The notes below the pieces were generated by a model that had not been told where the DNA came from, made no database searches, and was given only the letters and a program-made list of their open reading frames with translations. Shown here piece by piece: positions 6,297 through 61,174 of a stretch of DNA of 64,000 nt; the stretch's first letter is position 1, and each line of letters opens with the position of its first letter. The position numbers and the translations under genes were made by a program. Where the stretch lies: the NCBI GenBank assembly GCA_033182465.1, contig CP137325.1:1736001-1800000 (forward strand), in the 5' to 3' direction. The DNA comes from Sanghuangporus weigelae. Taxonomy: Eukaryota; Basidiomycota; Agaricomycetes; Hymenochaetales; Hymenochaetaceae.

Positions 6297-9200
6297 TTAG
6301 CTGAATCTGATCCGTTTCGATCTAGCAGAAGTCCGTTTTGATGCCAATCGCACACTTCTCCTGGCTCCTTGACATGAAGTACAGTCTCCATTCTCCAGTC
6401 GTCGGGACCTAAGATTGTAGGTCCTTCCGGACCCATCACCCAAAGCAGAATCAGAGTTTGCTGACCTGATATCGACTACCTTGTGTCCTCTGGTCATGCG
6501 CTTTGCTCCTTGTCCCATATCTGTTTCGTTCACACCTCCATTCCGATCCAGAGCCTCGCGACGCCTACGCTTTCTTCGTCGACCCAAAACTTGTACCTCT
6601 GGATTATTAGGATAATCAGCGTCGTCCTCGGCTTCCTCTAGTATCCGTTTACCACGAGCTCGGTCGGCTCCGTGAGCTACGTGAAACTGGATCGCTACGG
6701 CCAGCAAACAAGTCCGCGTGCCGGGAAGGTTGTCATATGCCACTGGAAAATAATCCGAGACATCGTGTTCCGTTCTGTCGCAATTCGTAGTTTCGTCAGA
6801 CGAAAGTCTGGCATAGACCAAGGTACATAGTTCTCGAAACTTGTCCATAGTCCAAAGTACTGTGTCGCTTCGCATCTTGTGAGCCACGTGAGTTGTTGCC
6901 AGATATCTGTAGCCGGTTTCGAAAAACGATTGGATGTATTCATTCTCAAATTCGAATTTGCGAAGGAATTCCCTCCCGGAAAAGCCTTGCTGGATGAACT
7001 TCTCAGCTCCACCAGAGGCTTGCCCGTTCTCCCCTGGTTTGATATCGTTAAAGAAACGATACATCCAGCGCCCCAGTCCAGCTACGTGTCGTTGAGGCAG
7101 CCAGCGGAGACAACCATACATCACGACGTAAAACAATGATTCCATGTCATCCTCTTGTGTTTGATGGCAATCGTCGCACTCTCGAAGAATTCGGGCTGGC
7201 ATGAACGCCCATGTACCCTAACTCAGATGAATACTCACAATGAATCAAGAAATGTAAATAGATTGCTAACCGTATGAAGGCCATCCGTGGCCTTTCCTGC
7301 GTCGTCTACCACAGTCGAAAATTCCCAATCAACGAGGAGACCTCGTCTAGGCTGCGAGACTTCGGCTCGATAGAGGATAATATTGTCCAGACTGACATCA
7401 CGATGGATTCTTCTGCACTGCCTGTATGCCAAATCAAGTGCTGCAATCCCGTCAGCCATGAAAATTTCACATTCTGTTGGACGTTACCTTTAAGCGCGTC
7501 TCTAGCACCACCAAATAGTTCGCGCGATCCATTGAATGTCCTCAATGGGTAGCCCGCTTGCTTCAAAACAACTCGGCAATGCGTATGTTTGTACACCCGT
7601 AAACACAAACGATCCTGTAAGCACTCGCAAACCCAGTATTGGCTGATATAATCATTCGTCCTCGTACACTGGACTGTGCCTGCATCTGCCTCCATGTCTA
7701 CAACTGGAGACGAATTGCTCTGAGAAAAGTCCCTAGAACTATTAGGAAATTCGTCATTCTGATCATATTGATACGTCGCTTGCATATCCATGCTCGCTTT
7801 CACGCTTTCCTGCAATAACAACGTTAAGTAATGGTGTTTTACACCTTGTATTATTGTACGCACCTCGTTGTTCTCAGCTATAAATTCATAGCCGATCACG
7901 TCTCCAAAGGTCTCTAGTTCACAGATATTCACTACACGGCCTTCTCCCATTTCGCTGTATACCACACCCTCTTCTTTCACACAACCTAGGTCGATTCGCC
8001 AAACATCTTTCAAAAAACAGACCCTGCCTTCACCGGACCTTGTCATTTCAACAGCCCAATACGCGCGAGTCGAACGGCCGTCCGCAGATTTTGGCGAGGT
8101 CATGGGCACAGATACAAGGAAATATCGCAAGGAACGTCGTTTTTGGTCATAGACCTGCATCTTCATCACTTTCCCATTCTCGTAGTGAACTGCAAGTGCC
8201 TCGTCCAGCTCTCTGGAGTCTGTGTCGCTGAAGCTTAACTGCAATGCTACATGTCGTCGTACGCAAGCTCTGAACAATTTTTCTTCGGCACGAGAAGCCA
8301 CAATGACGGTTGGATCGTAACCACGTTGAACCGGATTGGCATGGTGGAACCTCCAGAGGAATTCGCACAGTAGGTCCGGCCGCTGTCTGTAATCAAACGA
8401 GGCTGTCACTATCCCTCCCGCACGATCCCAGCGCAGAAACCGAACGCGAGTACCAAAGATTAACATGGCGAAGTAGAATACTCGATGCTGTTCAGAACAT
8501 GCTATGGAGACACATCCAACACTTCGACCAAGATTTCGCTCCTCCTCCTTCCCGGCATCAAAGTCGCTCTGTTGTTGATACTTGTGATTCTCATACGCGA
8601 AGAAGCTCTTGCATATACTTCTGCTATATCGATCGTGCGAGTGGGAGTCGCAAAAAGGGTCTCCGCTCTTGCGAACCAACGCGAAAAGCTCAGCAGATCC
8701 AAGGCTCGGTTTAAAGCCAGACTTGAATGTCCTCTCATCTGGGTCACCGTCTTGCACAAAAGGTCCAAGCGATACATTATAACCGCAGACTTCCGGAGGA
8801 AGGATTTCAGGAGAGTGCACATTGTAAGAATCGGCGGTGGTGCAGAAATTAATGCTTGGGCAACGCTTGTCCTTGTCAATCGCAGCGATCTAGGCTTCTA
8901 TTAGCACCAGTATCAGAATCGAATGAAGCAACAGACACACCAAAACTCTGTAGATCTCTCTTTCGTCCTTAGGCCTCAGAGGAACGTTATTGAACGCTCC
9001 AGCAGACTTCGGCATACGCTTGTGACCTGGTGCGGAAGGCAAAAATTCATCGAGGAATGATCTGACCGGCATGGGTCCGATTATCACTTTTCGACCCTCT
9101 CTCGCGTAACGATGAATATCGTTGATTTCCGCCGCTTGAATGGGACCTTTTAACGGATCTTTCGGGGTTCTAGCAGTGGGTATATCCATCGGAATGGCGG

Positions 9201-9507
9201 CATTGTTAAGCGGGCAGATCATGGGCACTGATGACGACAAAGTTTGCTGGCTACAAGTTGAGCTTGTAGCCGAAGAGCTCAACAGACTTGAGCAAACGAA
9301 GCCCGCATGATGTCGATAAGAGAGATTCGAGACTCCTTTTGTAACATCGCACGGCAAAACTGGATCGTCCGGACATTGAGAGGACAGTGGCACAGCAGTA
9401 TTACATTCGAAAGGGGTAGATACTGAAGGGCTAGGGGACAGAAGATCAGACGTTTGGAGTTCTTCTAATTTTTGTGTATCCCGCATGCCTTGAATACAGC
9501 GTCGCAA
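6297..9507 (-). CDS. FK1: FunK1-type fungal protein kinase
   Basis: Five exons: 9507-8941, 8889-7864, 7809-7488, 7440-7271 and 7217-6297, giving 1001 aa with canonical GT-AG introns of 47-54 nt. The N-terminal motif is GRKVIIGPMPVRSFLDEFLP. The core contains FRW-like LRWDRAGGIVTASFDY and the probable ATP-binding lysine in FLKDVWR. The catalytic loop is HRDVSLDN in the 170-nt exon 4, followed by DWEFS in place of DFG, then GTWAFM and the C-lobe DDMESLFYVVMYGCLRWLP. The tail has RRRKRRRR, TYNLRSRRLE and RRSVRLASKR, which looks like a nuclear-localisation and basic region. All catalytic residues are present, so it is predicted active. FunK1 is known as a fungal kinase family; its substrates are unknown to me. 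An E-box lies 58 bp upstream of the ATG. Confidence 0.92.
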
Positions 9508-9564
9508 ATATAACAGATGGTGGTAAAAGATGAATATCCGACACCAGACGCAGGATGTGAACAG

Positions 9565-16644: not shown

Positions 16645-19616
16645 TCAAGGACGCACGGTCTCCGGTCGTCGTTTCTCGGCCTTCTTCAGGAGCCTTTCTG
16701 ACCGTCGACGAACTGATTCTTCATTGGTGATGACATCTTCATGGTTTCCGTTGTCCAGTTGTATGCGTTTGGTTTCCGGTAGCCGAAAGTCTCTGCCCTC
16801 TGCTCGCCTTTTGCCTGACCGTGATGTCTCATGGGTGTCATTCTGGACCTCCTGTGTGCGGCTCAAAGCGGTGTGTGTTCCATAATGAAATATCTTTGGT
16901 GGCTCGAAGTAATCGGAAACGTCGTTCTCGGTTCTGTCGTATTCCGTATCGCTCGTCTCGCAAAGACTCTTGCATGCATCGTCAAAAATATTCCGCACGT
17001 TATCGCTTGTCCACAGGCTTTTATTGTAGCCATTGTCAATGCCTTGATTGACATATCCCAGGTACTTGTAACCGTTCTGGAAGAACAATTTGATGTGCTT
17101 GTTTCGAAACTCGAATTTCTTCAGAAAGCTCCTTCCTTGTTCGAGCTGATGACAACGCTTCTCTACTCCGCCTATGTCCCGGCCCTCCTCATCTTTCTCA
17201 AAACTATCAAAGAAACTGTGCATCCAGGTTCCAAGAGTCTTCATGTCGTTATGAGGAAGCCACCGTAGACTGCCGTACAGGACAACATAAAACAATGACT
17301 CCATGTCATCTTCATGTGTTTGGTGGCCGTAATCACTGTCACGCAGAACTCGGGCAGGTATAAAGGCCCAGGTCAGCTGAGCTAACATGATATCAATTCT
17401 TGAAACAAATACTTCAAGTGGAATACACTCACGGATCGAAAATATTCTCCTGGGTCTCGTACTACATTTGCTAACGTAGAAAACTCCCAGTCAATCAGAA
17501 GTCCACGTCTACGGTCGGAGGCCTTGTCTCTGTAAAGGACGATATTGTCCATAGTAACATCACGATGTATTCTGCCACATAACTGATAGGCCGAATCAAG
17601 AGCTACGAGATGCGTCAGTGCTGAGATCGTAATTCAGTCATGCACAATACCTTCTAAGGCGTCCCTGGAGCCACGGAATAACTCACGGGAGCTCTTAAAT
17701 GTCTTGAGAGGGTATCCAGCCTGAGTCAACACCAACCGACAGTGTATACGTTTGATAATTCGAGTTTTTAGTCCTTCTCTCAGGCAGTCACATACCCAAG
17801 GTTTATTGATATAGTCGGTCGTCCTCGTGTATTGGATTGTGTCTGCTAACCTGCTCAAACAATCTTCATTTGATTCGGTAGTCGCAACACATTGAGCTGA
17901 GGGTTTGTCGCAGCCACCAACTGCTTCCTGTGAGGAGTCCTGTTCACAGTTTTCCTGTTAAATCATATAACTCATCCTATCGCGATAATCAATTAAAAGT
18001 CATACCTCATTGTTACTTTCTTTCCGGCTGAAATCCGGCAAGTCGCCGTACATTTCGAGGTCACAGATATTGTTGACTTTCTTCTCATGCATCTCAATAT
18101 ATATGCATCCTTCCTCCATCACAGTGTTTTTATCAAGGCGCCACATGTCCTTGAGAAACCGTACGTTTCCTTCAGTTGGACTTATCAACTCGACAGCCCA
18201 ATAGGATCGCGTAGAACGGCCGGCTACCGACCTTGGTGATTTCAAAGGTACCGACACAAGGAAGGCTCGAACAGTACACTGACTTTGATCATACACTTGG
18301 ATTTTCGTCACCTTTCCTTCTTCGTAGTGAAATTTCACTGCTTGATCCAGTTCTTTTGTGTTCGTTTGGCTGATATCCAACTGGAGTGTAGCGTGCTGTC
18401 TTATGAGTGTCCTGAATAGTTCCTCTTCTGCCTTCGACGCGACAAAGACCGAAGGATCAAAGCCACGCTGCACCGGTGTTGCATGATGAAATCGCCAGAG
18501 AAACTCGCACATGAGCTCGGGTTGCTGTTTGTAATCAAACAAAGCTGTTGCTATTCCGCCGGCGCGGTCCCAACGAAGAAATCGAGCGCGAGTTCCAACA
18601 ACCAAAACAGAAAAGTAGAATATGCGATGTTTGCGTGAAAAAGCTGCGGAAGGATAATTAATGGATTGTCCAAGGTTTCGGCGTTCTATCTTGGCAGAAT
18701 CGGGTTCATTCGTCGGTGCTGTACGCTTGTGATTATCGTACGTGAAGAAGCTCTTTTTAATGGTAGTCTTGAGTGGCTCGTGCAAATGATCTTCGCATTC
18801 GCATAGAGGATCACAATCCTTCTTGACCTCTATCAACGTCTCCGCAAGGCCAAGATTCGCAACGTATTTATCCTTGATGTTGTCCTTCACAGTTCTGGTT
18901 CTTTTATTCCTTTTGACCCGTTTTCTTTTTCTGTTTTTTTTGGAACTTCTGCTTTGGCTTCACATACTGTATATCTTTGCAATCATAACCACATACGTCG
19001 GGCTTGAGGGAACCATCGCCAGAGTTCTGCGCATTGTCTGCTGTGATGCAAAATTGGACACTTGGGCATCGCTTATAATTGTTGATAGAGCTAACCTGCA
19101 CCTAAATTAGTATCAATGCAGACGACAAGAGCTGAGAAAACTCGCTAGTGGTTCATAGATATCTCGCTCATCCTTTGGAGCCTCAGGGATCTTGTCAAAT
19201 GCTCCTGAAGGATTGAGCATCGGCTGATCCGCGGGGATGGGAGGTAAGAATTCATCAAGAAATTCCTTCACTGGCATAGGTCCAATTATCACGCCTCTGC
19301 CTTCCCGTGCATGTTGGTCGTTATTATCATCCGCCTTGTTTGAAAGGAAGGCATCCTGAAGACCACTTCTCTTTCTTGCTACAGGGGTATCCTTCCATGG
19401 AGGGAGTGAATCCAGTCCATGTAAGCGAGGGCCAGGGGTGCAAGGAGGTGTTGAGATTTGCTGGTTCGGTTCGTTTGGACTTCCCTGACTGCAAGGAGTG
19501 TCAAATTTGGCCTCTTGACGTGACGGAGTTCTCTGTAAAGGTTCCTCGAAATGCGATGAAAAGGGCAAAGCATCATTACTTGGGAGAAATTCTGAAGAAA
19601 CTTGGGAAACAGACAT
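16645..19616 (-). CDS. FK2: FunK1-type fungal protein kinase
   Basis: Exons 19616-19146, 19101-18006, 17954-17651, 17602-17433 and 17376-16645. Motifs: EGRGVIIGPMPVKEFLDEF, FLKDMWR, IHRDVTMDN, LLIDWEFS, LTWAF and DDMESLFYVV; the tail has KRRAE and RRRSERLLKK. Intron 1 starts with GC instead of GT (GCGAGT...CTAAT...TTAG, 44 nt), a rare GC-AG intron. Inside exon 2, after YDCKDIQY (about 18935-18970), the frame is only kept if a 37-nt GTATGT...ACAG intron is removed; otherwise there is a one-base shift at a run of eight A's. With that intron the product is 911 aa. All catalytic residues are intact. An E-box lies 70 bp upstream. Confidence 0.85.
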
Positions 19617-22908: not shown

Positions 22909-25897
22909 ATGCTCGTGCCTGCTTTGGAAGATTGTGGACCTACTTCTATCCCGAAGGATATTCCTATCTCTCGGAATGCCGATGAAACCTCACCAGACCT
23001 CAACGTATACCATCATGCGAGAAGTGGGAGGAATGTGATAATTGGACCTATGCCTGTAAAGGCGTTTCTCGATGAGTTCCTTCCTCCTGCTCCCGTGGGA
23101 GAACCTATGCCTGAACCGGTGCGAGCGTTTGCAAAGGTGCCTCGAAAGCCAAAGAATGAGAAAGCCATCTACGATCCTCTGGTGCGTAGACATTTGCAAA
23201 TTTCCCCCGCGTAGCTAAAGCTTACTGGCTGTCAGATTGACGCGATCAATAGCGAAAAGCGCTGCCCGAGCGTAAGTTTCTGCAGCGCTGCGGACGTGCC
23301 CGAGGACCCTTCTTCGCCAAACTTCAGACCGAGTATATGCGGTTATACCCACAGGGATATGCAGCAACTGTCTCGAGAAACGGAAGGACCAAGCTTGGGT
23401 TTGGCCGAGACCTTTCTCATGGTTAAGAAGGGCCATGATCCGTTCTGCGATTCTCATACCCATTCCAAGTCCTCATACAAGAGTTTCTTCGCTTTTGAGA
23501 ATCGCGACTACGAAAAAGAGAAAGATGTCGATTCTGGGAGAAATGAGAAACGGAACCTCGGCCAATGCGTCGCTTACGCAGTTGAGGCGTGCTTGCGACA
23601 GCATCGCAAGTTTTACTTCTCAGTTTTGGTCATCGGTACTCATGCTCGGATTTTCCGATGGGATCGAGCTGGGGCGATTGTCACGAAGGCATTCGATTAT
23701 AGAAATCACCCGGAATTGTTATGCGAGTTTCTCTGGCGCTTCCATCTCGCTAATCCAGTCCAGCGTGGCTTCGATCCTACAGTCTCCGTCGCTTCACAAA
23801 CGGAAGAGGATCTGTTCAGGACGTTGATAAGGAAGCATGTCGCGTTGCAGCTGGGTATCAGCGAGGATGACTCCGAGAAGGTAGATAACGGTCTGAGACA
23901 GCATTACGAGAAGGGGAAAGTGATGAAAATCGAGGTCTACGAGCGAGGCCGGTCGACTCCCGACTTTTATCTCGTATCAGTATCCCTGACGTGTCCGAAG
24001 TCGGTGTCTGGCCATTCCACTCGTGCCTACTGGTCCATCAAACTTACTGGACAAAATGAAGGAATGTGCTGCTTTCTGAAAGATACATGGCGCCTGAATG
24101 GGGACGCTATGAAAAGCGAGGGTGGCATATATGAGGAGTTGGGAGACGTCGGGGTGGAAAACATATGTGACGTTGAATGTTATGGGGATGTCCCTGAGGT
24201 TTGTTTAGTCAATGAAATGACTGAGGTGTGTTCTCGGAAGACATGCATGGAACTATCAAATTGATTAATATACTCTAGGAGCGGAGCCTATGCAACGAAC
24301 TGAATGCTAGCAGCGATGTGGTTACGACTTTATCCAGACCGAGGGAAACCTCTGAAAGGAAGTCGCCTATCAATATGATCGACTCAGAAGAAATGACCAT
24401 TTCAGCACAACGAACAAGAACACAGGAATTCATTGATGCCGCTTGGGTCTGCAAGTGTCTACGAGAGGATCTAGCCTCGCATGTTTTCCGGCATACGCAC
24501 TCCCGCATGATCCTAAAGGAGGCTGGATACTCATTGAGAACGTTTACCGGATCACGGGAACTGTTTAGCGCGGCTAGAGATGCGCTGCAAGGTACCAATA
24601 TCGCTTCGATAAGCTTGCCAGTTACTGATGCATTTCAGCTCTCGACTCCGCGTACAGACGATGCCGGAGGGTCCGCCGCGATATCAGCTTGGACAATATT
24701 ATCCTTTATCGACTTGAACCGTCAGGACCACGGAAAGGTCTGCTTGTCGATTGGGAGTATTCAAGCGTAGTTGATTCATCCGGACGTGTCGCGGACAAAC
24801 TTCGTACCGTAAGCACATTTTTGTCGTTGAAACGACTTCCTTACTAGTATTTCTCGCAGGGGACGTGGGCATTCATGTCGGGAAATGCCTTATGTGGCCT
24901 AAAGAAATTTCGTCATGCGATTGAGGATGACCTAGAATCTTTATTCTATGTCGTTATGTATGGCAGTATCCGCTGGCTGCCTCATAATTACGTATCTCAG
25001 CTAGGTCGCTGGGTGCGTAGCTTCTTTTATGAAGCCCTGCCAGAAGGGATCGGTAAAACCATCGGCGGGACGGATAAACTTCTGCAAATATCTTTTGGTG
25101 GCTCAGAATTCTTCGATAAATTCTCGTTTGAAAATCGCTTCGTTCAGGACTGGTTCTGGGTTGCTTACAAACTGCTAAGGACGACCTCCCTTGCTTCCAA
25201 GGACGTTGGCGGGAAATGTCTATTGACAACGGAAAAGATGCAAGAACTATTCACAGTCGTGTGCGAGGACCTGGCTAGAACTGACGATACGAACATCGAC
25301 CGAACTGAGCATGAGCTTGAAGGCTTTGCCGGTGCGACTCCGCGCATCCAAGGCACCCATATTTCTCTGTTCATTGCAGCCAGAAATTTCCGGCTCACCC
25401 ACACGGAACCGGAATTTCTCGGGAAGCGATCATTGGATGAGGAATTTGAAGATGAAGATGGCATCGAGAATGATAGTAGTGAAGTGCAGGTCTCACCGAC
25501 ACGAGACGTAAAACGTCGGCGGTTGGTTTGTCAGGATAATGATGACAATGTGAATGGCAAAAGAGGAAAAGACGAACAACCAAATTCGAAACGTCTTAGG
25601 GACAAGCGCAGAACAAGAAACGAAAGATCCAGGAAGACGAATACGAGCAGGAGTGGTTCGGATTCGGACGATTCTCGCCGGTCAGGTGGACGGATTCGCT
25701 CTTTATCCAGTCAAGGGCCGAGGAGAAGCCCACGACTCAAGGCAAAATTTGATTTGTCTAAGCGTGCACGACCCGTCCTCGGGCGTGGCGATGATATCGT
25801 GCCTAACAAAAAAATGAATCACAAACGGCCAAACACGAATCAGCTTGGAGATAAGGTCAAAACAAGAAACCGACTAGCCGGGAACTCTCCCTCTTGA
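22909..25897 (+). CDS. FK3: FunK1-type kinase with altered HRD motif
   Basis: Exons 22909-23181, 23236-24225, 24279-24591, 24639-24808 and 24860-25897 (927 aa from the first in-frame ATG). Motifs: GRNVIIGPMPVKAFLDEFLP, FLKDTWR, GLLVDWEYS, GTWAFMSG, DDLESLFYVVMYGSIRWLP; the tail has KRRRL and RRSPRLKAK. Two oddities. The reading frame is open 5' of 22909 only back to a stop at 22831 and has no upstream ATG, so the N-terminal stretch that sister copy FK6 has is missing. The catalytic loop reads RRDISLDN, because the histidine codon is CGC at 24674-24676 where FK6 has CAC. The catalytic Asp and Asn remain, so activity is uncertain rather than excluded. There is no E-box of the family type upstream; TGACGTGA at about 22608 is the nearest match. 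Confidence 0.85.
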
Positions 25898-28851: not shown

Positions 28852-28906
28852 TACAGATCGTCAGTCGCAAGCCATAAACTCTCCCGGAGTTTCCACCAAT
28901 ATACGT
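28848..28906 (-). pseudogene. Orphan C-terminal fragment of a KB-type kinase
   Basis: Minus-strand reading gives FWDVYWWKLRESLWLATDDLY then a stop at 28848-28850, matching the last residues of the fragment at 35891 (FWDIYWWKLRERLWFAADDLY) and of KB1 (FWDIYWWKAREKLW). Only about 20 codons remain. It abuts the truncated end of FK4 tail to tail, as the longer fragment does behind FK6. Confidence 0.7.
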
Positions 28907-39700: not shown

Positions 39701-39811
39701 TTTTCTGATGTCAGCAGGAGATGTTGGGTCACCTGGCTTGAGAAAGCAAGGAGAGAACGAAAGCAAACTGTTATACGACAAGATTTCCTTATCATCATTA
39801 GTGACAAGCAT
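36754..39811 (-). CDS. FK7: FunK1-type fungal protein kinase
   Basis: Exons 39811-39335, 39283-38243, 38192-37937, 37885-37716 and 37668-36754 (952 aa from the ATG at 39811). An upstream in-frame ATG at 39886 would add 25 residues but lies only 35 bp from the E-box; MLVTND at 39811 resembles the MLVHE start of FK6. Motifs: GRKVILGPMPVKAFLEDFLP, RARFFRWDRAGGIVTRAFDY, FLKDSWR, LHRDVSLDN, GLLIDWEFS, GTWPFMSR, DDMESLLYVVMYACVRWLP; tail SKRRRLDSEG, PYNLRSRWLE and RRSSRLAAR. Catalytic residues are complete and all introns are GT-AG, 47-51 nt. Predicted active. Confidence 0.91.
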
Positions 39812-43609: not shown

Positions 43610-46462
43610 CTACCTCCCACAAGTGACCCAGAGTTTCTCTCGAGCTTTCCACCAATAAATATCCCAGAAAGTCCCTGTCGGATCGTGGAACTTCTCCTTA
43701 TCGCTCTCTGGCATTTCTTTCGGGCGATCAACTGGAAGTACGAGAGTCTGGAGAACAATCTTAGTATGAACAGGTCGATAGCATGTACAGTTTAATACCT
43801 TACATTAGGACTTGAGGAGTTAACAAGATTATTCCTATTTCTTCTGCGCTTGCGATTCCTCGTGTCACCCTCCTTCCCCTCTCGTGTGCGTCTGGCCCTG
43901 GCGGTGAAAATTCCCCGGCTTCTCTAGAGGAAGTATTGGCAAGTAATTGAAACCTTTCTTGACCGAGATCCACTCACCGAACATTCGCGTCTACTGTACG
44001 CTGCCGACGCATCCTTCCTGTACCCAATCCTCCCGTTCAACTCGTCTCTCGAACATAAGAGCGAGGAGCTCAAGTACGCATCTTGGAGATATGTTGCTAA
44101 ATTATAAGACGTCTTTACCGGCAATGGATTCTCCTCGATGAAAATGGGATCCCCATTAGCCCGCAATCTCCTGATCTCCTTTAAAATAAGTCTTTGCATG
44201 AAATCATGCAAATGGAACTCGTATCGTTCGCCCCGACCTGTAGCAACGACATTGTACCAAGGAATCTTAATGTATGAGAACATTGTCTTGAGCATAGCAT
44301 AGAACGGTTCAAAATTTTTGCCGGTTCCGAAGCTGGCTCTACCAGGGAATACAAAGCAGACGGTATTGTCACATCTCCGTCCTGCAAAAATCTCGAAAAG
44401 TTTGCCTCTATTTGCCTCCAACGTAGGTATCTCCGATGGATCTACGTGCTCGTCAAACGGCCAGAGACGGCCGAAAAACAGGAGGCAGAGATAGAATACG
44501 GACTCCGCGTCATGGACGGCACCATGTCTGAACGATTGCACTAGCTTGTCGTCGTTGTTCAACGTCGGTTCGATTCTCCATCGAAGCTCGGCAAAGTTCT
44601 CGTAAAACTTGTCCCATTCGTGCTTTTCCTGACAATCGGAGTATTTGTCGATGCAATCCTTGGGAACTTCTCTTCGTACATTCTCAGAGAATCTGGAGAA
44701 TGGGGTCATAATACTGCCGTCGCGAACCGACAGAACGTCCTCTGCCATAAACATGGGTGTTCCCTGTCCCAACCAAGTAAGCGAGATATATTCGCTGTAC
44801 TCGGTCACAATATTGCTCACCGTTTTAACCATCAGGTCATCCTCCTCGCCAGTATGGATAATCGTAGCATGGTCAAAATCAGCTAAAGCCACTCGAACTT
44901 TCCATCTAGAAAACATGTGAGTCCAGGTCCTTGGAAAGAATAGGTTTTACGCACTTATCCTCGTCAAAAATGTCTGACACAAATCGATAGTTATGTGAGA
45001 TGCAATGTTCATTGTCCGATACAGATCGTCTACTGGACACCCTGACGACTCCTGTTTCTTGCAGGTCACAATATTCCTTCGGACGTATGAGAATATTGCT
45101 CCAGCTGACATCTCGGTGAAGAATATTTTTCTCTTGAGTAAGATAACGAAGAACTTGGGGAAATGTTAGGAACAGAATATAGGGGAACGAAGCGTCATGC
45201 TTGCCTTCAAGCAGGTCATACATGACCTCCAAAAACTCCAGAACTGATTCACATGCGCAAAGGGGATAGCCGATCGTCTTCAGTACGAGAAGGCTGCGCA
45301 CACGAGAGTCTTTGTCTAAGCTGCTAGAATCCACTGCGTTCACTTTCAAAGATGCCTCTGACAGTTCATCGTCAAGACGCACAATTCCGGGCGCATCCTG
45401 AAGCTTCTGGAGCAGTTTGCACTCCTGCCAGCGATCTGCCGTCTTGTACCACGAATACTTGAAGACTCGTACAACTTGGTCATCTTCCGTAACACCCAAT
45501 GCAACGAACGGTTTGCGACCATCACCACGCGAGAGGATCGGAAGCAAGCGAAACCGACGGCCAGCTGATATCGCAGAATACAAGCCGATTGTCCGTGTCT
45601 TCATCGTGATGACTTCCTTCAGCTTCGGGACAGCCGGATGATAAGGACGCACAGCTTCGTCGCGTATGAGTTTCACATAAGTACACAGCTTCTGGATTGC
45701 GGACGGATGATTCCAAGGAACTCTGGACCAGGTCCTTCGATATTCTAGGCCAACAGAAACGATCGTGAAGTCTTTTTTGCAAACCACAAGTCCATGCTGT
45801 TCATAAGATGCAGGTCTGTAGGAAGACAAAGAAAGCAGATAACTCATGCATTGATCTACGTCGTTAGAACTGCCTTTCGCGACTATTATGCTGACCAAAA
45901 GATGTAACGATGGGGTAGGGATGTCGATGTTGGAGTTTGCGCCGATGTGGTCACCACTGGCCAACTGCTCTGCTGCAGCACGAGGGGCGAAGAACGCAAC
46001 AATAGGCGACGAGTCATCGGAAGTGCATGGACCGAGACGCAGACTAGAAGAAATTTCCCTGGAAAAGACAAGCACCTCGTCGTCTTCCTTTGAGCTGACG
46101 ACCAAACTTGCCAATGTCAACACAAGGGAAACAGAGCCAATTTCGCTGGAAGTGACCTCAGGAAGCTGGGCTTTCAGTCGTTGATAAAATGACATTTCTA
46201 ACGGGCCAACGTAGTCTTCTGGTTCTCGCAGTGAGCAGGTGCCATTCATCGTAAGCTGCGATAAATACCACGAAGCCTGGAAAGTGGAAGGGAGATAAAA
46301 GAATTGGCGCGGGCACGTGACTTTCTCATCGTATAGAATAGCTTCGATGGGCCACGCATGCCCAATCACACTAGTGCTGCCTACTCGTGCTTCTGGTAGG
46401 CCATGTATCGCACGAGAAGTTAGATATACTCCGTCTATCCAGACAAAATGAATCTTCCTCAA
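43610..46462 (-). CDS. KB1: divergent FunK1-like protein kinase
   Basis: Exon A (46462-44955) encodes an unfamiliar N-terminal region, then VVRVFKYSWYK with a likely ATP-binding lysine, RLDDELSEASL, and the catalytic loop ILHRDVSWSNILIR. A 49-nt intron leads to exon B (44905-44821) with VALADFDHA, a DFD metal-binding motif. A 57-nt stopless intron leads to exon C (44763-44119) with GTPMFMAEDVL, GAVHDAESVFYLCLLFFGRLW and DFMQRLILKEIRRL. GTxxFMA and AVHDAESxFY are hallmarks shared with FunK1, but the rest differs from the FK genes. Short further exons lead to a C-terminal block LPVDRPKEMP...FWDIYWWKAREKLW and a stop at 43610. The junctions between 44118 and 43760 are not resolved. Catalytic residues are present. 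KB2 is its adjacent paralog. Confidence 0.75.
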
Positions 46463-46613
46463 GATAATGCAATCGTTCGTCTCGAGTTCAACATGCTACT
46501 AGTACTGCTAATCATACAATAACAAGAGAAGAAACTCCATTCTAACATTGCGCTCATACAGTGATACGGATTAACCCCAAAATTCCTGTATCAATCCGGC
46601 ACGACAGAAACCA

Positions 46614-49133
46614 TCACTTATCATATTCGGATGGCCTGTGTAACATATCCGCGACGAGCCAGGCCTTTTCACGCCTCTTAACCCAGTAAACTTCCCAGAA
46701 GAATTTTGGAGATAGCCCTTCTTCAGGAACTGGCATCTCTTTTGGTATACTGACCGGTAATCCATGCAACTGCAGACAGAGGTAGAACGCTGGTGGGTTT
46801 GCGAGAGAGAAATGAATTACGCACTTTACGAGTTGCTCCTGAACGCGGTTCCTTGTTCGCACAATAAAAGGTAAGTTGTTATAGTTTTCACCTGCAATTT
46901 AGGACTCACAGCTGTAAACATAAACATTTCAAAGCACTTGCTAGTGTAGTGATCTTCGGAAGTTCGGTTCGCCGTCGTCACTCCCACGGGATTCATCTCA
47001 ATGTACATGGGATCCCCACTGGATCACGATCTCCGAATCTCCTTCAAGATCAGTCTTTGCATGAAATCATGCAGATGGAACTCGTATCGTTCGCGCCGAC
47101 CCGTCTCAGCGACATTGTACCAAGGTACCCTAACGTACAAGAACATTGCCTGGAGCATGTTATAAAGCGGTTCGAATCTCTGGCCAGTCACGATGCTAGT
47201 TCTATCAGGTAGATAAAAGCGGATAGTGTACCTGTCACACACCCTTCGGAGGAAGAACTGAAAAGTTTTGCCCCTGTTCGCTTTCAACGCCGGTATTTCC
47301 GATTCGTCTATACGCTCGTCGAAGGGCCACAAGCGGTTGAGAAAAAGAAGACAGAGGTAGAACACGGACTCCGCATCATGGACCGCGCCCTGTCTGAATG
47401 ACTGCACTAGCTTGGCGTCATTACTGAACAATGGTTCAATTTTCCATTGAAGCTCGTCAAAATTCTCGTAGAACTTGTCCCATTCCTGCTTTTCCTGACA
47501 ATCGGCATATTTATCGATGCAATCGTCAAGAGCCTCGATTCGGATCTCATCAGAGATTCTGGAGAAGGAGGTCATGGCACTGCTGTTGCGAACGGACAGA
47601 ACGTCTTCTGCCATAAACATGGGTGTTCCCTGTGTAATTTGTGTGAGCAAAGGATATTTCCGCACTGCATCACAGTATACCTCACCGCCTTGTTCCTCAG
47701 GCCATCCTCCCTTCCAGTATATATATAAGAAGCGAGGTCAAAATCAGTTAAAGCCACTTGAGCTTTCCACCTGTAAAGTATCTTAGTCTGCTTCACCGAG
47801 AAGACAAAGTTACGCACCTATCCTCCTCAAAAATATCCGAGACAAACCGATACCTGTGAGAAATATCATGCTCAATTCTCGTCTCGAACCGTCTATAGGC
47901 ATCTTCAACGACTTCTTCTGTTTCAAGCGAATCATATTCCTTCGAGCGTATCAGAACGTTGCTCCAACTGACATCCCGATGAAGAATATTTTTCTCCTGG
48001 ATAGAGTAACGAAGAACTTGAGGAAGTGTTAGAAAGAGAAAAGAGGAGCACTTAGCATCACGCTTGCCTTCAAGCAGATCATACATAACCTCCAAAAACT
48101 CTAGAACTGATTTACATGCGCAAAGGGGATAGCCGATCGTCCTTAGTACGAGAAGACCGCGCGCACGAGAATCCTTGTCCAAACCGCTAGAATCCACTGC
48201 GTTTATTTCCAGAGATGCATCTGATAATTCGTCATCAAGACGCACGATCCCGGGTGCACCTCGAAGTTCCTGGAGCAGCTTGTGCTCTCGCCGGCAATCG
48301 ACCGTCCTGTACCATGAATACTTGAAGACTCGCATCGCATAATTTGTCCGTCTTCCGCAACAGCTAATGCAACGAATGGTTTGCGACCTTTCGCTCGCGA
48401 GAGAATTGGAAGCAAACGCAACCGGCATCCACCTAACTTCGCGGAATACAGGCCAATAGTCCGTGTCTTTATCGCAATGACGTCCATCAGCTTCGGGATG
48501 GCAGGGTGGCGAGGACGCATAGCCTCGTCACGTACGAGTTTCACGAAAGTACACAGTTTCTGAATCACGCACGGAGGGATTATCCCAAGACGTTTTCGAC
48601 CACGTCCTTTGATCATCTAAACCCACAGAAACAATCGTGAAGTCAGTTTCACAAACCGCGAGACCATATTGCACAGAGGATGCAGGCCTGTAAGAAGACA
48701 AGGATAGCAGATAATGCATGCATCGTTCTGCGCCGCTTGAGCCGACCTGTGTGACTATTACGCTGACTAGAGAAAACGATGATGGGATAGGAACACCGAT
48801 GCCATCGAAAGAGTACATTTTGACGTGAGAATCATTCGTCATTTACTCTGCCTTGGTGCGCGGAACGAAGTACGCAACAATAGGAGGCGAGCCACCAGAA
48901 GCGCACGGGTCGAGTCGAAGTTGAAAGAAAGTACCCTCAGTAAAAATAAGCACTTCATCGTCTTCGACTGAGCTGACAATCAAACTAGCCAGCGTCAACA
49001 CAAAGGCGACAGAGTCGGCTTGACCGGACATGATTTTGGGAAGTCGAGCTTCTGGTCGCCGACGAAGCGACTTTTCGAACGAAACGAGGTAGCCTTCTGG
49101 TCGCGTGTGAGTAAATTTCATCAAAAGACACAA
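46614..49133 (-). pseudogene. KB2: decayed paralog of KB1
   Basis: It follows KB1 over its whole length: VLTLASLIVSSVEDDEVLIF, LLSLSSYRPAS, IKTRTIGLYSA, RVFKYSWYR, ILHRDVSWSNVLIR, VALTDFDLA, GTPMFMAEDVL, GAVHDAESVFYLCLLFLNRLW, DFMQRLILKEIRR and a final FWEVYWVKRREKAW. Compared with KB1 it has an in-frame TAA at 48843-48845, a frameshift near 48600 (between WDNPS and VIQKLC), and another near 48335 (between DGQIMR and VFKYSW). The catalytic loop itself is still intact, so decay is probably recent. Conserved intron positions with KB1 show a tandem duplication. Confidence 0.8.
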
Positions 49134-52336: not shown

Positions 52337-53220
52337 TTGTCGTCGTGGTGGAAAGGAAAGAAGACCGAGATAGACACACCTACAGCGATAGAGATAAACA
52401 TTGCATAGACCATGTGATGAAATATAATAATTGGAAATGAGATCAAATTTTTAAAGAGGACGCTCCAATGATCCTTGAATGGCGGAGGGTTTTTGTCAAG
52501 AGAGATTTGTGGAAACGCGATATGTGTACGGAAATTGCCGAATCGATTAATTTTGTCCTTCGTATCGTCGTCAGACCCTGTATCCTGGACCTGGATCTAC
52601 ATGTACAGTCTCGACTAATCGCGTGCATCGTCTTCCGATTTCTCCAACTGTCGCTCCTGATGAGCGAGACGTTACGGATAGAGTTGTTCCGAGATGCATT
52701 AGAAGCGAAATGGGCCAGGTTTGTAGTAAGTTCTATCGTGACTCCACGCTGCATCTCCGCACTAAATCTGTTTTGCAGATGCTTTATGAATCAAGGATCA
52801 CGCAATGAGAGGTCGGATGAATGCAATGCATGCAGACCGTGGAATTCGAAGGGGACTAGGAAGAGTAGAAAACGACGCCTATAGAGCCGGATCGACTTTG
52901 TCACAGGCAGCTAGGAGACAGCCGTCGACCGGAATGCCGTTGATAGCACCGCGGCTCATTAACGACATGCCATCGATTACCTCCAGCTCTCCGCGCTCTG
53001 GTCAGTGATACTAACTCAATATTCTCCAGAATAGCTCTCATCGGCGTGGTCACGATTCGATCCGATACATACACGTCGATCTGCTGAGCTAACGGACAAA
53101 ATCAAATTTATAAAGGTAGTAAGGCATTTCTACGACTCGGAATGTCTGAATTCTTTGGAGACTTCGAGTCCGAGTCTTGATGCATTTCCACTCCCGACGC
53201 ATGGCTTCATCTCACCCCAA
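52337..53220. other. Upstream flank of ATG22, no gene recognised
   Basis: A plus-strand open frame at 52468-52884 (138 codons) and shorter overlapping ones show no known family pattern. I would not annotate a gene here. Confidence 0.35.
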
Positions 53221-53229
53221 CCTCCAATA

Positions 53230-54140
53230 GCATGACATCCTTACCGAAGGATATACCAGCCTCCGGATATACAGATTATCTGTTGGAAATCCAAATTACA
53301 GAAGCATCAAGCGTTATTATCGCCCTTCCAAAAGTGGATAAGGACTCATTCCTGTGACGACGTTTCCAGACGAAGTTTCTCCTCCTACGCCCGACGACAA
53401 GCCGATGCTCAATTATTCCGGGATAATTTACAGGGTGTACTCAATACAAGAAGCTGAACAGAAAATGAGCGAAATTTTGGTGAGTTCTGCATCTGCCCGG
53501 TAGTAGTCCTACTTAGACTCTCATAGGTTATTGCCTTCAATTTGGCCCGAGTGTCAAATACTGCATTGTGTGCTACACTTATAATGCTCAGAGCTTGGAG
53601 GGTACTTTGCAGGTGAGAGTACTTCGTAGGTGTAGTACCGAACGTATGAGAATTACGAGAAATGACGTACTATCTCCGTTACGAATGCAGGACAAGACGG
53701 ACGAATCAGACCTAGGCTTAGTAGAGCTCTCGCCTTGATTCGCAAGAGCAGTTGGTACAATGAATCATACAGAAGAGCCTCTTTACAGGTGAGAACCACA
53801 AATACCAGTAACAATATAAGTACAATGACGCTGGAAGGGAGAAGCAGAACGAAGACCGAAGTGGGTCTCCGAAATTTGTTTATGACAGCATCGCATATTT
53901 TCTCGTCGTTACACTAGTACATGGCACTTGGGCTCGCTTTCTATGTTGAGATCATGCTGGAGGGATCGCAACTGCTTCGTTCGACTATAGTCAACGCGAG
54001 TTGCTGTGCTTTTCCTTTACGAACGTACCTGGACTTTTCATCATGCAAGCCTTGCCCAGCGCGGTTGCGACCTGGTATTATTATCGCATCAGATGCTGAA
54101 AAGGAGATGGTCTCTGCGTCCGAAGTTCCTGCTTGAATTT
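53230..54140 (+). pseudogene. FK9: heavily decayed FunK1-type kinase relic
   Basis: Pieces of FK exons 1 and 2 appear in order but in changing frames. SLPKDIP at 53240 corresponds to the SIPKDIPI of FK6. IPVTTFPDEVSPPTPDDKPM (about 53350) corresponds to the GPMPVK...FLPP..GEPMP segment. CPSVKYC (about 53550) corresponds to CPSVSFC, and SDLGLVELS (about 53710) to LGLAE. SLFTGENHKYQ (about 53780) corresponds to SFFAFENHKYQ. ARFLC.DHAGGIATASFDY (about 53940) and RGCDL-like HHANPVQRG remains (about 54050) follow. Nothing is seen of exons 3 to 5. Several frameshifts and stops make it a clear pseudogene and the oldest kinase copy here. Confidence 0.75.
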
Positions 54141-54479: not shown

Positions 54480-54605
54480 ATCGCTGGTATTTAATGCACT
54501 GGAATGCTTCAAGCCACGACGTCTGCGCTTTCTCTAAACCACGTAGCTCCTGCGACCTTATATTTCAAACCCACAAACAACAGGCACTGCTTCTCCAAGA
54601 AACTT

Positions 54606-57600
54606 ATGTCTACATCTGCGATTTTCGCGGGAGCTGACGGACCTGCATTCGATGATTCTCATCCTCTTCAGTCGTATGTCGAGAATGCGGATGGGCCGGC
54701 TCAGTCGAAAAGTCCGCGAACTCCTCCGCCTCGGGTACTCAAGCATGATTCCGTATCTGACCTTGACCAAGGTGATCCAACAGCATCAAGCTCTCCTTTT
54801 CCCGTGTCACCAACGGCCACGCTGCACAAGCTCCGAAAATATGCCAAACCTACTTCGTACCATCCTGTCATCTTTCCGAAAGACACCCCAGTTGCCAGAT
54901 CCCGAAATGGCCAAGCCGGAGCTTTCCTTCCCAATAAATCAGAGGATGTTGCGGATGACCATGCTAAGCTCGGGAAAAAGACTATGATCGGACCAATGCC
55001 CTTGAAGCAATTTCTCGACGATTTCCTGCCCCCTGTGAGTGAAGACAATTCCATGCCAGATCCTTCTGGTGCATTCGACGATGTGCCCTTGAAACCCAGG
55101 CACGAATCAGATATCTACGAGCCTCTGGTAGGATTTCAATTTATTATATAATTAGTACAGATGCTCAAGTGTCCTCAGATCAATGCCATCAATGAGGGAA
55201 AGCGATGCCCGAGTGTTCAATTCTGTATCACAGCTGACATTCCTGAAGGCTCTGGACGCGGAGTTCTCAAACCAGATTTCTGTGGCTATGACCATAAGGA
55301 TATACCATACGTTACACGACACGTAGAAACGACGAAGGAAGGAAGGAAGATCGTGGTAATCAAGTATGCGACAAATTTGGGTCGTGCAGGAATATTTGGG
55401 GAGATCAAAAAGGACAAAGACCCAATCTGCGAGCCAAGTGGTCATGTTCATCGTCCAAACGCTTCTTCGATCTACAAAAGTTTCTTCACGTGCGAAAATC
55501 ACAAGTACGACCCTCCGAACGAACCTGAGAGTGCTATTCAGGAAAGGCGCAACCTTGGGCAAAACATTAGCTATGCTTCCAACGCATGCTCTCGCCAGCA
55601 CCGCATGTTCTATTTTTCAATATTGGTTGTCCTTACGCGTGCGCGAATTTTTCGATGGGACCGTGCAGGATCCATAGTCACCGTTTCTTTTGACTATAGG
55701 GAACATCCGGAATTGCTTTGCGAGTTTCTCTGGCGTTTCCATCTTGCAAACCCGGTCCAGCGTGGCTTTGACCCTACTGTCATTGTTGCCTTGGAAGCTG
55801 AGGAGGAGCTTTTCAGGAGCGTCGTAAGAAAGCATGTTGCTTTCAAGCTGGCTATTGACGAGGACAATTCGAAAGAATTAGACGAGGCTCTCCAATTGCA
55901 TTATGAACCAGGAAAAGTTACCAAGATAATTGTACATGACCAAAAGAATCTGGCGCGACCACGTGAGTTCCTCGTATCCGTACCCTTAGAGTCGCCTAGA
56001 TCAGTGGTTGGTCACGGCACTCGTGGTTATTGGTCCGTGGAGATAACAGCACCAGGTGAAGGGAAAGTTTGCTTTTTGAAAGATACGTGGCGCGTAAAGT
56101 TGGACGAAGTGGTGGAGGAGGAGATAGCGTACAATGGGATGAAAGAAGCCGAGGTCGAAAATATATGCGATCTAGACGCTTATGAAAACGTTCCCAACCT
56201 TAAGCTAGCACCCCGCTGTGATACGGTATGTCTTCGCATTTCCCCTTTCTATGTACTACTGATCAGACATGAAACAGAGAGACGCAAACACTCGGGTGCA
56301 GAATCCGACTGCAGGCAAGAATGCCTCGGAAGCCGAGGTGGTTGAATCTCAGTGCACCAGAACCAATGAATACATTAACAAGTCGTGGGTTTGCAAGTGT
56401 TTACGAAAGGGTCTAAGAAACCGCATTGTTCCACATGTGCATTGCAGAGTGGTCTTAAAGCAAGCAGGTTATCCGCTAAGTACATTCAAAGGGTCCCGGG
56501 AGCTATTTGGGGGGGCTAAAGATGCGCTTGAAGGTTCGGTTTTCGCATATGGTTGTATCTGTATTTACTAACTATGTCTGTAGCACTCGACTTGGCGTAT
56601 AGTAGATGGGGTAGGATCCATCGTAATATAAGCATGGACAACATAATCCTCTATAGATACGACTCTTTGCAACCGAGGAGAGGACTTGTGGTTGATTGGG
56701 AATTCTCGACGCTGGATAATCGGTCATCTAAAGCTGCAGAGTACTTCCGTTCCGTGAGTTTCTTCTTGTTTGTAACCTTGGTTTGATAGTGATGAAAGTT
56801 CCGTTAGTTAACCTGGGCCTTTGTATCAGGAAGAGTTTTGAAAGGACGGGGGTACTTGCGCCAAACTATTGATGATGACATGGAGTCATTGTTTTACGTT
56901 GTCATGTATGGGTGTATCCGTTGGTTACCTCATAACGACGTGCCAAAGTTAGGCAAATGGATGTACAATTTCTTCGATGTTGCGGACGAGGACGAAAAAG
57001 GGAGGGACTTCGGAGGGAGGGAAAAATGTGCTGTGCAAATTCAAAAAGGTCGAGATTTCTTGGAAACCTTCAGCTTCCCAAATAAAAAAATCCAAGACTT
57101 CTTTGAAATCGGTTACCAACTTCTAGCGACGATTCATCCAGACTCTGTCAAAGAAGGGGAAAAGAAACTGTGGACCATGAAAATGGTACAACATCTCTTC
57201 CGCTCCATTCACGGTGGCCTTCTTTCGATAGACGACACAGCCCACGATAGAGTCGAAAACAAGGTGAACGACTTCTTCATATCAGCGAAGAATACTCGAC
57301 ACGGAACACATACTCCCTTGACTTCTGTGGATGGAATGCACAATCCTGCTCGCGGTCTATTGCAATCAGACAATAAGGGACCATCAGGCAAGGATGGGAA
57401 GCGGCCCATTCATCCAAACCGCACACCCTTGCAGCTGACAAATGGCAAACGGAGACGACTTCATCTCGACAATCAACGGCCTTCCTTTCCGATTGGAGAA
57501 TCAAGCACGACAAGAGTCACGAGGAGTGCTGCTAATATTCGGAGGTCGGCCCGCAATAACTCAGTGCATTATGATGCTGCAACGGAAGAGGGAGAAAACG

Positions 57601-57671
57601 GTACCAGATCATGCGACACTCGGAGGAAAAGCAGACGATTGCAGGAGAAGGCTGGTAAGAATACGAAATAA
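54606..57671 (+). CDS. FK10: FunK1-type predicted pseudokinase (HRD to HRN)
   Basis: Exons 54606-55127, 55179-56225, 56278-56533, 56584-56753 and 56808-57671 (952 aa). The ATG at 54606 (MSTSAIF) matches the short starts of FK2 and FK5; an in-frame ATG at 54504 lies only 25 bp after the E-box. Motifs: KKTMIGPMPLKQFLDDFLP, TRARIFRWDRAGSIVTVSFDY, FLKDTWR, then IHRNISMDNIILYR, in which the catalytic Asp codon is AAT (56625-56627). The metal-binding segment VVDWEFS and the C-lobe DDMESLFYVVMYGCIRWLP are kept, as is the tail KRRRLHLDN and RRKSRRLQEK. Loss of the catalytic base with an otherwise intact frame and introns points to a pseudokinase kept for binding or scaffolding, or to very early decay. 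Confidence 0.9.
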
Positions 57672-57985: not shown

Positions 57986-58092
57986 CTGTTCATATACCGA
58001 TGGTGCTCTGTTGGTGCGCTCAGACGCGACTCTACTTCCAACTTCTCAGTCCAGACACGAAATTATCGAACGGGCAAATCGCTTCGTCAGAA

Positions 58093-61000
58093 ATGCCTGA
58101 AATTGTCGTTTTGTGCAAGGATATATCATCCTTCTTGCTTCCTTCAACCCAGCTCAAGACTCCGCCTACCTTCGAGGATGCAAAGGCCGATCTCTCCTCT
58201 TCGCAGCGATCTAGTGGCTCGAGCTTTTCAAGCGCTTTGAGTTCTCCACCTCCCAGCACGCCTCAGGATCGGGACCTAATGGACATATCCTCACATCGAG
58301 CGTTACCTCTTGGGAGAGCCATCCCGAAGGATATACCGATCGCCAGACCTACGGAAGAGAATCAATCTGCTTTCGAGACATCATCTAGCTACGTCTTTCG
58401 GCGTGCGAGGGAGGGACGAAAAGTGATAATCGGTCCCATGCCAGTCAAAGCATTTCTCGATGATTTTTTACCGCCCGCACCGGATGTTATACCCATGCCT
58501 AATTCTGCAGCAGCGTTCGCGGAAGTGTCTTTGAACCCTGTCGTTGAAGGAGATATCTATAAACCTTTGGTAAGTACTTGATGTGCTCGGCCATATGGAT
58601 TTTTTATTTTTTGTTTGTTTTGTAGGCTTCAGCCATCAACGAGGGCAAATGGTGCCCTAGTACTGATTTCCGAATAACTGCTGATGGTGCTGGAGTACGC
58701 GACCGCCGAAGTCTCGAGCCGAGTATCTGTGGATATTCGCATCAGGATATTCTCTCCCTGTCACAAGTCCCAGCCAATGGAAATGAGGGATGCGAACCAA
58801 ATTTGGGTCTGGCAGAAATTTTCGCTGTGGTCACAAAGGATAATGACCCATTTTGCGACCATCACTGTCACGATCGGCACAGCAAAACGATACACAAGAG
58901 CTTCTTTGCGTTCGAAAATCACAGATATCAACGTGCAGAAGATTTTGAAATCGGAAGCAGAGAGAGAGCTAATCTTGGTCGGGTTGTTTCCTGTGCGTCC
59001 GAAGTTTGTGCGCGCCAGCATCGCATATTCTGTTTCTCCATATTGTTTATCGGCACCCGGGCCCGATTTTTCCGCTGGGACCGTGCAGGGGGCATAGTCA
59101 CCTCTTCGTTTGATTACACGAAGCACTCAGAGCTGTTGTGCGAATTTCTCTGGCGCTTCCATCATGCAAATCCGGTCCAGCGCGGCTTTGATCCCACGGT
59201 GACCATCGCTTCAAGAACCGAAGAGGAGTTATTTAGGGATCTTATAAAGAAGCACGCCGCACTGCAACTGAACATCGGCGAGGATAAGACCCAGGGACTG
59301 GACGAAGCTCTCCGACACCATTACGAAAAAGGGAAGGTTTCAAAAATTGAAGTATACGAACGAGGCAGACGGATGCCGCGAGTGTTCCTTGTATCTGTTC
59401 CTTCGACATCACCGAGATCTGTAGCCGGACGATCGACTCGTGCTTATTGGGCTGTGGAACTCACAGGACCCAATGACGGTGAGGTACAATTTTTGAAAGA
59501 TGCCTGGAGAATCGAAATGGGTGGCATGAGAAACGAGGGTAATATATATTGTGAGCTGGAGGAGGGAAAGGTTGCAAATGTTTGCCATCTTGAGACCTTC
59601 GGAGATGTCCCTGACTTTGAGATGGCAGGTGGAAACAAGGAGGTATGTTTCTTGGACTTGGCTCGACGAAGATGTGTTAACAACGACATCATCTTTCGGC
59701 AGAACTTCATTTGCGAGACACTCCTTCAACGCAATACGAACAATGCTGAGATCCCTATGGAACCTGGCACAGGTAGAGTCCCAGAACAGTGCACGAGAAC
59801 AAATGAATATATCGAGGCGCCGTGGGTCTGCGAGTGCTTAAGGGAGAATCTGTGCGCACATGTCTCCAGACATATGCATTGTCGAGTGGTGTTAAAACAA
59901 GCGGGGTGCTCTCTGAGGACATTTAGGGGGTCCCGAGAATTATTCGATGGTGCTAGAGATGCTCTTGAAGGTTTTATCCCTCCATTTGATTGTGTCGGTA
60001 CCTACTAATCATCGTTCGTAGCGCTTGATTCTGCATCCGAGCAATGTGGGAGGATCCACCGTGATGTTAGTCTAGATAACATCATTCTTTTTCGATCCGT
60101 AGCCTCGGAACCTAGAAGAGGATTACTAGTTGATTGGGAATTCTCTACGTTAGTTGATGAGACGGGGAAAGCTGTGGATGACCTGCGATGTGTAAGTTAC
60201 TTGGTTTCTCAGTGAAAGAAGAAACTTACTCCTTTTTCCAGGGGACTTGGGCCTTCATGTCAGCGCGAGCCCTGCGTTCTAGGCGGGACTTTCGGCATAT
60301 CATAGAGGACGACATGGAGTCGCTGTTTTACGTCGTTATGTACGGGTGCCTTCGCTGGTTGCCTCACAACGACGTTCCTCGTCTGGGCAAATGGATTCGT
60401 AGATTTTTCGACGAAGCCGTCGAGTATGGAGATGGCCGTGATATTGGCGGGCTGGATAAAATTATCAATCAGGCTGGCCGTGGCTCTGATTTCCGTGAAG
60501 CGTTTCAATTTCCGAACGAATTTGTCCAAGCATGGTTCGATATTGGATACGGATATCTAGCGACCAGTCATGTTCTTCGTAGGGACAGCGGCTCGGAACT
60601 GCTTTGGACAACAAGAAACTTACGACAACTGTTCAGAACTATTTGTAACGGTCTTGCTGCTCAAGAGGAGGCGGAAAACGATAGAATGAATCACAACATG
60701 CAGGGTTATCTCGCTGCAGCTGAGGATCATCACGGCATGCACACATCTTTGCTTGCTGGTGCAATTCAATTCCATGCGGCCCGCGCACAAGAACCAGTCG
60801 CTAGTAAGCAATTATTGGATGAGGCCATCTCCGGATTCGACAGTCCGATCGATACAAGACCAGAGGATCGCAGGCAACGAAGCAGGAAACGCAGACGACG
60901 CGACAGTCCAGCCGACAATGCAATTGTGCATTACGTTGGCACAAAGAGCCAGTGTCCGAAGTCAAATCGTGCAATCAAGAAACGCAAATTAAACAGCGCG

Positions 61001-61174
61001 AGGTCCACTCAGCCCGATTCTGCATTTGACAGCAGTATCGCAAGTACGTACAATCTTAGATCTAGACGAGGCAGAGGATGTTACTCTGCGTCTGATTACG
61101 GAACCAGAAGGAGTGCGCGACTTGCCTCCAAACGTAGCGAGCCCAGTTCCATGGCCACGAGGCGACACCAATAA
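58093..61174 (+). CDS. FK11: FunK1-type fungal protein kinase
   Basis: Exons 58093-58569, 58626-59642, 59703-59970, 60022-60191 and 60242-61174 (954 aa). The frame is open upstream to 57724, but ATGs at 57724-58000 lie before or within 15 bp of the E-box, so the ATG at 58093 (MPEIVVLC) is preferred. Motifs: GRKVIIGPMPVKAFLDDFLP, RARFFRWDRAGGIVTSSFDY, FLKDAWR, IHRDVSLDN, GLLVDWEFS, GTWAFMSAR, DDMESLFYVVMYGCLRWLP; tail RKRRRRDS, TYNLRSRRGR and RRSARLASKR. Catalytic residues are complete and introns canonical; predicted active. The tail resembles FK1 and FK7 most. Confidence 0.92.

Follow-up and report, generated by a model that had tools for sequence, protein, structure and literature searches.

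FunK1 kinases (PF17667) are a fungus-specific family, found in filamentous, multicellular species. In a number of fungi they are greatly expanded, and what they do was still to be settled (PMC3591445). A described feature of the family is the HRDxS catalytic loop, with a serine where other kinases have a lysine (PMC3203195). Two further systems matter for what follows. Motifs II to IV of the PD-(D/E)XK superfamily follow a published scheme (PMC1913061), and, according to a review that cites Zhang et al. (2016), roughly one in six Crinkler-type C-termini combine a domain of the restriction endonuclease (REase) superfamily with a kinase, which perhaps regulates the REase (PMC5289972). The present work concerns a 64,000-nucleotide stretch of the basidiomycete Sanghuangporus weigelae (assembly GCA_033182465.1, contig CP137325.1, positions 1,736,001 to 1,800,000 of the forward strand), hereafter the window, numbered from its first letter. 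Genes of the FunK1 type crowd there into some 55 kb: ten are named FK_A to FK_J (A to J for short), an eleventh is a relic (R), and two, KB1 and KB2, form a second branch. What is new is that the FK genes make up two subfamilies arranged in repeated pairs, one of them carrying a nuclease-like signature that the other has lost.

Family membership was established with the PF17667 profile, the FK proteins being searched without their leader and C-terminal tail. All nine FK proteins with open frames match it at 123.2-178.5 bits (cut-off 24.1), while the open reading frame (ORF) of D, KB2 and one KB1 ORF, at 71.8, 37.9 and 31.7 bits, also lie above the cut-off. The FunK1 identity that a first-pass annotation had proposed from the letters alone is thereby confirmed. 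The serine of the HRD loop is present in nine of the ten FK genes (B has a threonine), and both KB genes read HRDVS. Individual kinase motifs vary as well: I reads HRN, the catalytic aspartate being lost, C reads RRD, and the DFG-like site of E is DWAS, with its aspartate kept. Near the C-terminus every open FK protein bears a basic tail, with runs of at least three lysines or arginines and an RRSxR-type end; such tails look like a nuclear localisation signal (NLS) and suggest a nuclear site. Pattern scans of viral and prokaryotic contigs for relatives matched 15 and 41 stretches, none of which was confirmed.

Subfamilies and the order of their genes

The tree of the FK proteins divides them into subfamily 1 (B, E, H, I) and subfamily 2 (A, C, D, F, G, J), with support 100/99. 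The same division is obtained under a second model (99.9/100), with the N-terminal segment (98.5/99) and with the C-lobe (91.6/84). Gene order follows it: in four cases out of four, the next FK gene downstream on the same strand of a subfamily-1 gene belongs to subfamily 2 (B followed by A, E by F, H by G, I by J). Gaps of 260-328 nt separate E from F, H from G and I from J, and 7.5 kb separate B from A. In a labelling test, which left out KB1, KB2 and R, 6 of the 210 label sets (four genes marked out of ten) equal this pairing, and 1 of 70 when C and D are collapsed into F.

This order would be accounted for if the array had grown largely by the copying of a two-gene head-to-tail unit, in which a subfamily-1 gene lies upstream of a subfamily-2 gene. 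Another explanation has to be weighed, that of an ordinary FunK1 birth-and-death array, built by single-copy duplications, where the subfamilies alternate by chance and no two-gene unit exists. Several observations tell against the unit and in favour of this alternative. The probability attached to the pairing is only 0.014-0.029, for a test devised after the pattern had been seen; branches inside each subfamily are mostly poorly supported, too weakly to demonstrate a joint duplication of partners; C and D are additional F-type genes; and the long gap between B and A contains a possible coiled-coil gene. To these must be added that the N-lobe segment does not give the subfamily split, E standing there beside C, D and F (92/90): probably, either genes of both subfamilies exchanged sequence or the N-lobe signal is weak. 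What speaks for the unit is that all four pairs have the same order and that three of them are so closely spaced. Chance alternation keeps, in our view, real though less than even credence, and copying of a two-gene unit is the explanation that we carry forward.

As a separate observation, the N-lobe segment of E (29815-30861) groups with C, D and F against the rest of its own protein, a possible exchange between the subfamilies.

The region preceding the kinase domain

In all four genes of subfamily 1, the region N-terminal to the kinase displays KPD, then E-x-K, then Q-x-x-x-Y; a QxxxY form of the PD-(D/E)XK signature is known. Subfamily 2 differs at these sites. Taking its genes in the order A, G, J, C, D, F, the aspartate of PD is replaced by E, A, S, S, S and G, and the glutamate of ExK by L, V, V, M, V and V. 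The lysine of ExK is kept in C, D and F (R, R and T stand in A, G and J), and C alone has kept both Q and Y. Of 252 columns invariant in subfamily 1, nine are absent from all six genes of subfamily 2, and these nine include both the aspartate and the glutamate (chance 0.0011). When D, E, Q and Y are considered jointly, retention in subfamily 2 is as low in 14 of 100,000 random quadruples. Shuffling columns 20,000 times (222 ungapped aligned columns) yields PD..[DE]xK in 0.9% of cases and the full signature in 0.025%, within spacing limits that were our own choice. The positions were picked as known PD-(D/E)XK motifs and were noted before the tree was made, with the sequences already seen, so that these tests are partly post hoc.

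We read the FK N-terminus as a nuclease-like domain, intact in subfamily 1 and dead in subfamily 2. This reading stays at the level of inference because structure prediction gave no usable model and none of the libraries searched names a nuclease. As the region is still conserved in subfamily 2, it looks like a dead domain that was retained, rather than like decay. Membership of the nuclease superfamily is not claimed, since profile, AlphaFold and Foldseek searches gave no support for it; FK proteins may nevertheless work like proteins with such a domain.

A number of results weigh against this interpretation. Sequence profiles from Pfam, PADLOC, NCBIfam and PDB named no nuclease in the FK N-terminus. 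AlphaFold, applied to the N-terminal exons, gave a mean predicted local distance difference test score (pLDDT) of 47 and 40, from an alignment of ten paralogues that is too shallow, and the best Foldseek match of the first, poor model (E 0.11) was an acetyltransferase of unrelated fold. An hhalign comparison of FK exon 2 with the main KB2 exon found no signal, the kinase part included, and so says little. Loss of the motifs follows one clade and may have been a single event. Kinase motifs, for their part, are not cleanly complementary to the nuclease-like ones, HRD being kept in three of the four subfamily-1 genes. The idea that kinase and nuclease motifs decayed reciprocally between the subfamilies was considered and rejected, since the catalytic aspartate is lost only in I.

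Many of these results would be expected if the N-terminal region were no more than a portion of a kinase fold peculiar to fungi, without any tie to nucleases, the PD/ExK residues being a clade signature: silent profile libraries, an uninformative structure prediction and a motif loss that coincides with one clade split all fit. This explanation has more difficulty with the rarity of the signature in column shuffles, with the presence of both carboxylates among the few columns lost throughout subfamily 2, and with the existence of a REase-kinase fusion in Crinkler-type proteins, as described in the review cited above (PMC5289972). It is a serious competitor, which we consider somewhat improbable; the argument below proceeds with a nuclease-like domain.

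Structure, turnover and surroundings of the array

Splice-aware profile alignment, complemented by tblastn and BLAST, delimits an array from 6.3 to 61.2 kb (about 55 kb) made of ten FK gene bodies, the FK relic, KB2, KB1 and a KB relic (Table 1). The eleven FK and two KB loci announced by the first-pass annotation were thus recovered, as was its succession of runs in both orientations (two minus, four plus, two minus, two KB minus, then plus): A and B on the minus strand, C to F on the plus strand, G and H minus, KB2 and KB1 minus, then the relic, I and J plus. Two fragments were also located, a 3' relic of KB type and, behind D, a 62-nt duplicate of the relic's edge, which may be the two that it listed. 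Its statement that almost every gene belongs to one family slightly overstates the case: array genes, with D, R and KB1 counted, cover 35,096 of the 54,878 bases (64%), and they are interspersed with an ATG22-like gene and a possible coiled-coil gene.

Spliced models came from the profile alignment and were then checked by strict translation. The start of each model except A was set at the most 5' ATG in frame and is uncertain; A was given a shorter one, with a longer in-frame start possible at 9486. Nine FK genes are open and one, D, is truncated. The nine (A, B, C, E, F, G, H, I, J) have ATG-to-stop frames of 867-987 codons, stop counted, with no internal stop. Splice sites are GT-AG throughout, apart from one GC donor in B, and intron lengths (47-84 nt) are in keeping with a fungus. 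All nine open models have introns in common at alignment columns 231 (phase 0), 701 (phase 1) and 758 (phase 0); a fourth FK intron, of phase 0, sits in a variable linker. Shared intron positions mean that the copies arose through DNA.

Table 1. Features of the FunK1 array, with coordinates in the window.
Feature	Coordinates	Strand	State	PF17667 (bits)	Remarks
FK_A	6297..9189	-	open, subfamily 2	150.6	spliced model without stops; motifs PE / LVR / RxxxC
FK_B	16645..19616	-	open, subfamily 1	134.2	PD / EVK / QxxxY intact; extra intron; intron 1 with GC donor; loop reads HRDVT
FK_C	22909..25897	+	open, subfamily 2	151.4	RRD in place of HRD
FK_D	26837..28851	+	truncated, subfamily 2	71.8 (ORF)	C-lobe missing, exon 1 damaged, start uncertain
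Copy of KB-type relic edge, behind D	28852..28913	.	62 nt		92% to 35901-35962
FK_E	29336..32360	+	open, subfamily 1	123.6	pairs with F
FK_F	32621..35711	+	open, subfamily 2	159	canonical kinase motifs
KB-type relic	35901..36443	-	3' end only		BLAST to KB2 3' flank, plus KB2-like coding piece
FK_G	36754..39811	-	open, subfamily 2	154	pairs with H
FK_H	40103..43024	-	open, subfamily 1	178.5	
KB2	43924..46614	-	open model, 841 aa	37.9	second FunK1 branch; N-terminal end uncertain
KB1	46868..49100	-	probably broken	31.7 (one ORF)	KB2 paralogue
FK relic R	53220..54083	+	relic		tblastn to FK_A, known loci masked; stop and frameshifts
FK_I	54504..57671	+	open, subfamily 1	123.2	HRN, catalytic Asp lost
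FK_J	58000..61174	+	open, subfamily 2	139	pairs with I

Divergence between copies is mostly considerable. C, D and F form a cluster (support 100/100) with mutual protein identity of 81-91% and a ratio of nonsynonymous to synonymous divergence (dN/dS) of 0.22-0.27. The other 42 of the 45 FK pairs are 43-57% identical in protein, with a synonymous divergence (dS) that has no defined value in 39 of them and amounts to 2.3-3.2 in the other three. Simple tandem expansion, as first put forward for the locus, thus explains only part of it: C, D and F alone are close relatives, and four neighbour pairs of the array combine the two subfamilies, always in one order. The same figures bear on whether the array might be an artefact of assembly, with alleles or haplotypes placed one after another. 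One near-identical tract between D and F would suit such an origin, but silent sites that are saturated or nearly so in those 42 pairs do not, and we rejected it, on the divergence between copies, as most improbable.

That tract is instructive in itself, for C, D and F are mosaics. Between D and F, dS is 1.03 in the first segment compared, falls to 0 midway and is 0.45 in the last. At 28348-28743 the two genes are identical at 393 of 396 bases, including all 47 positions of the intron (26 of 46 between C and F), and at 27347-27560 F is nearer to C (182/205) than to D (154/205). The longest run of D=F sites numbers 43, a length reached in none of 10,000 shuffles when the sites within 27347-28842 were permuted. 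The exchange was recent and came about by gene conversion or an equivalent form of recombination.

Decay has left its marks on several copies. The profile match of D stops at position 572 of 847, partway through the kinase domain, and a frameshift lies near 27233. Judging from the copy of the relic edge behind it, D is probably missing a stretch of some 1.2 kb that ran from the C-lobe of the kinase to within the KB relic. R, the eleventh FK locus, was found by tblastn (best E 6e-13, with A), and its profile alignment has one stop and three frameshifts; when the window was scanned with an FK profile, only 53.3-54.1 kb matched outside the known loci (scores 55-111). Relic claims rest on BLAST E-values because a scan of the window with KB2 alone gave many chance alignments (50-108 units). 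KB1 is 74% identical to KB2 in DNA over 2.1 kb; compared with it, KB1 has two stops and three indels, one of which, at 47664, is maybe an unrecognised intron, and it is probably broken. In the KB relic, 35921-36031 matches the 3' flank of KB2 (43628-43738) over 111 nt at 71% (E 2.5e-8). Its coding piece (36443-36372), similar to KB2 residues 768-791, is weak alone (tblastn E 0.39); it stands 341 nt from the flank match, against 339 in KB2, a spacing worked out by hand from the exons. One ORF at this relic (36057-36509) has no Pfam match.

Birth and death, which the first-pass annotation had recognised in the mixture of intact and damaged genes, is well founded: open, truncated, probably broken and relic copies lie side by side with the close relatives C, D and F and with gene conversion. 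Since introns are shared, D is without its kinase C-lobe and D and F exchanged sequence recently, it is nearly certain that these fungus-specific FunK1 kinases form a birth-and-death array.

Other features lie in and around the array. A gene for an ATG22-like vacuole effluxer (about 49.5-52.4 kb, minus strand, 110 bits), apparently unrelated to the kinases, separates KB1 from R. The possible coiled-coil gene between A and B (13645-15854, minus strand) has matches below cut-offs, and a 52-nt repeat occurs near it (11188-11239 and 13605-13656, 90%). Within a GC-richer stretch of 2 kb, an 18-nt tandem repeat (21158-21241) has 4.7 copies, 100% identical. Upstream of the array, positions 1-2406 hold pieces of a Copia-like retroelement, with Pol_BBD and SH3-like domains above cut-off, and zinc knuckle, gag pre-integrase and integrase core all below it. 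At 3542-4631, two 522-nt arms, 100% complementary, surround a 46-nt spacer, with ends CAGCCG...CGGCTG flanked by TA; this palindrome is either a fold-back element, a Tc1-like miniature inverted-repeat transposable element (MITE), or a palindrome of assembly.

Proposed account and described systems

The following account may be put together. Besides the copying of two-gene units proposed above, whole units would have been inverted, and extra copies (C, D) would have arisen locally, alongside gene conversion and decay. Each open FK protein has three parts: a domain at its N-terminus, the FunK1 kinase and a basic, NLS-like tail. The first of these would derive from a PD-(D/E)XK nuclease-like fold, the metal-binding residues having been lost in subfamily 2. 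Pairs would then act in the nucleus as active and dead nuclease-like partners, with kinase halves that control or report contact with nucleic acid, and would evolve under the turnover typical of genes of conflict or recognition. That an array of two-gene units coding for nuclease-like/kinase pairs is mostly right seems to us slightly better than an even guess. The proposed role in conflict is its weakest step. We would advance only as a doubtful suggestion the wider idea that such FunK1 proteins fuse a nuclease-like domain to a kinase, are inherited as repeated pairs of one partner with the metal-dependent nuclease signature and one conserved dead version, and belong to an intracellular system of fungi for conflict or recognition with fast turnover, rather than being ordinary signalling kinases.

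The value of a paired signature, intact in one gene and lost in its neighbour, is that it offers a testable idea of FunK1 function and of why the copies multiply and decay, and that it names residues. Should the nuclease interpretation be wrong, the locus is still a well-resolved case of birth and death among kinases, with measurable gene conversion.

Comparison with the PD-(D/E)XK superfamily shows both sides. In terms of its published motif scheme, four of the ten FK genes resemble that superfamily in PD (motif II), ExK (motif III) and a Q like that of motif IV. Unlike its members, FK proteins have no detected similarity to it in profile or fold, and six of the ten genes are without both carboxylates. 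As for Crinkler-RHS (CR) proteins with REase and kinase, the architecture proposed for them is like that proposed here for FK: a REase-superfamily domain and a kinase. The LXLFLAK header is theirs and not that of FK, whose REase fold is putative; no motif of this type occurs in the ten FK proteins (D as a partial protein only), and because it is absent, FK proteins are not classed with Crinkler-RHS. In the FunK1 literature covered, outside which most subscription papers lie, neither paired subfamilies nor a nuclease-like N-terminus was found. With FunK1 itself, the array shares the profile match, the loop serine in its HRDxS setting (in all FK genes but B) and a lineage-specific expansion. That literature, as far as it was covered, gives counts, trees, expression or mere mention, and what the present locus adds to it is a set of neighbouring genes in which two subfamilies are interleaved.

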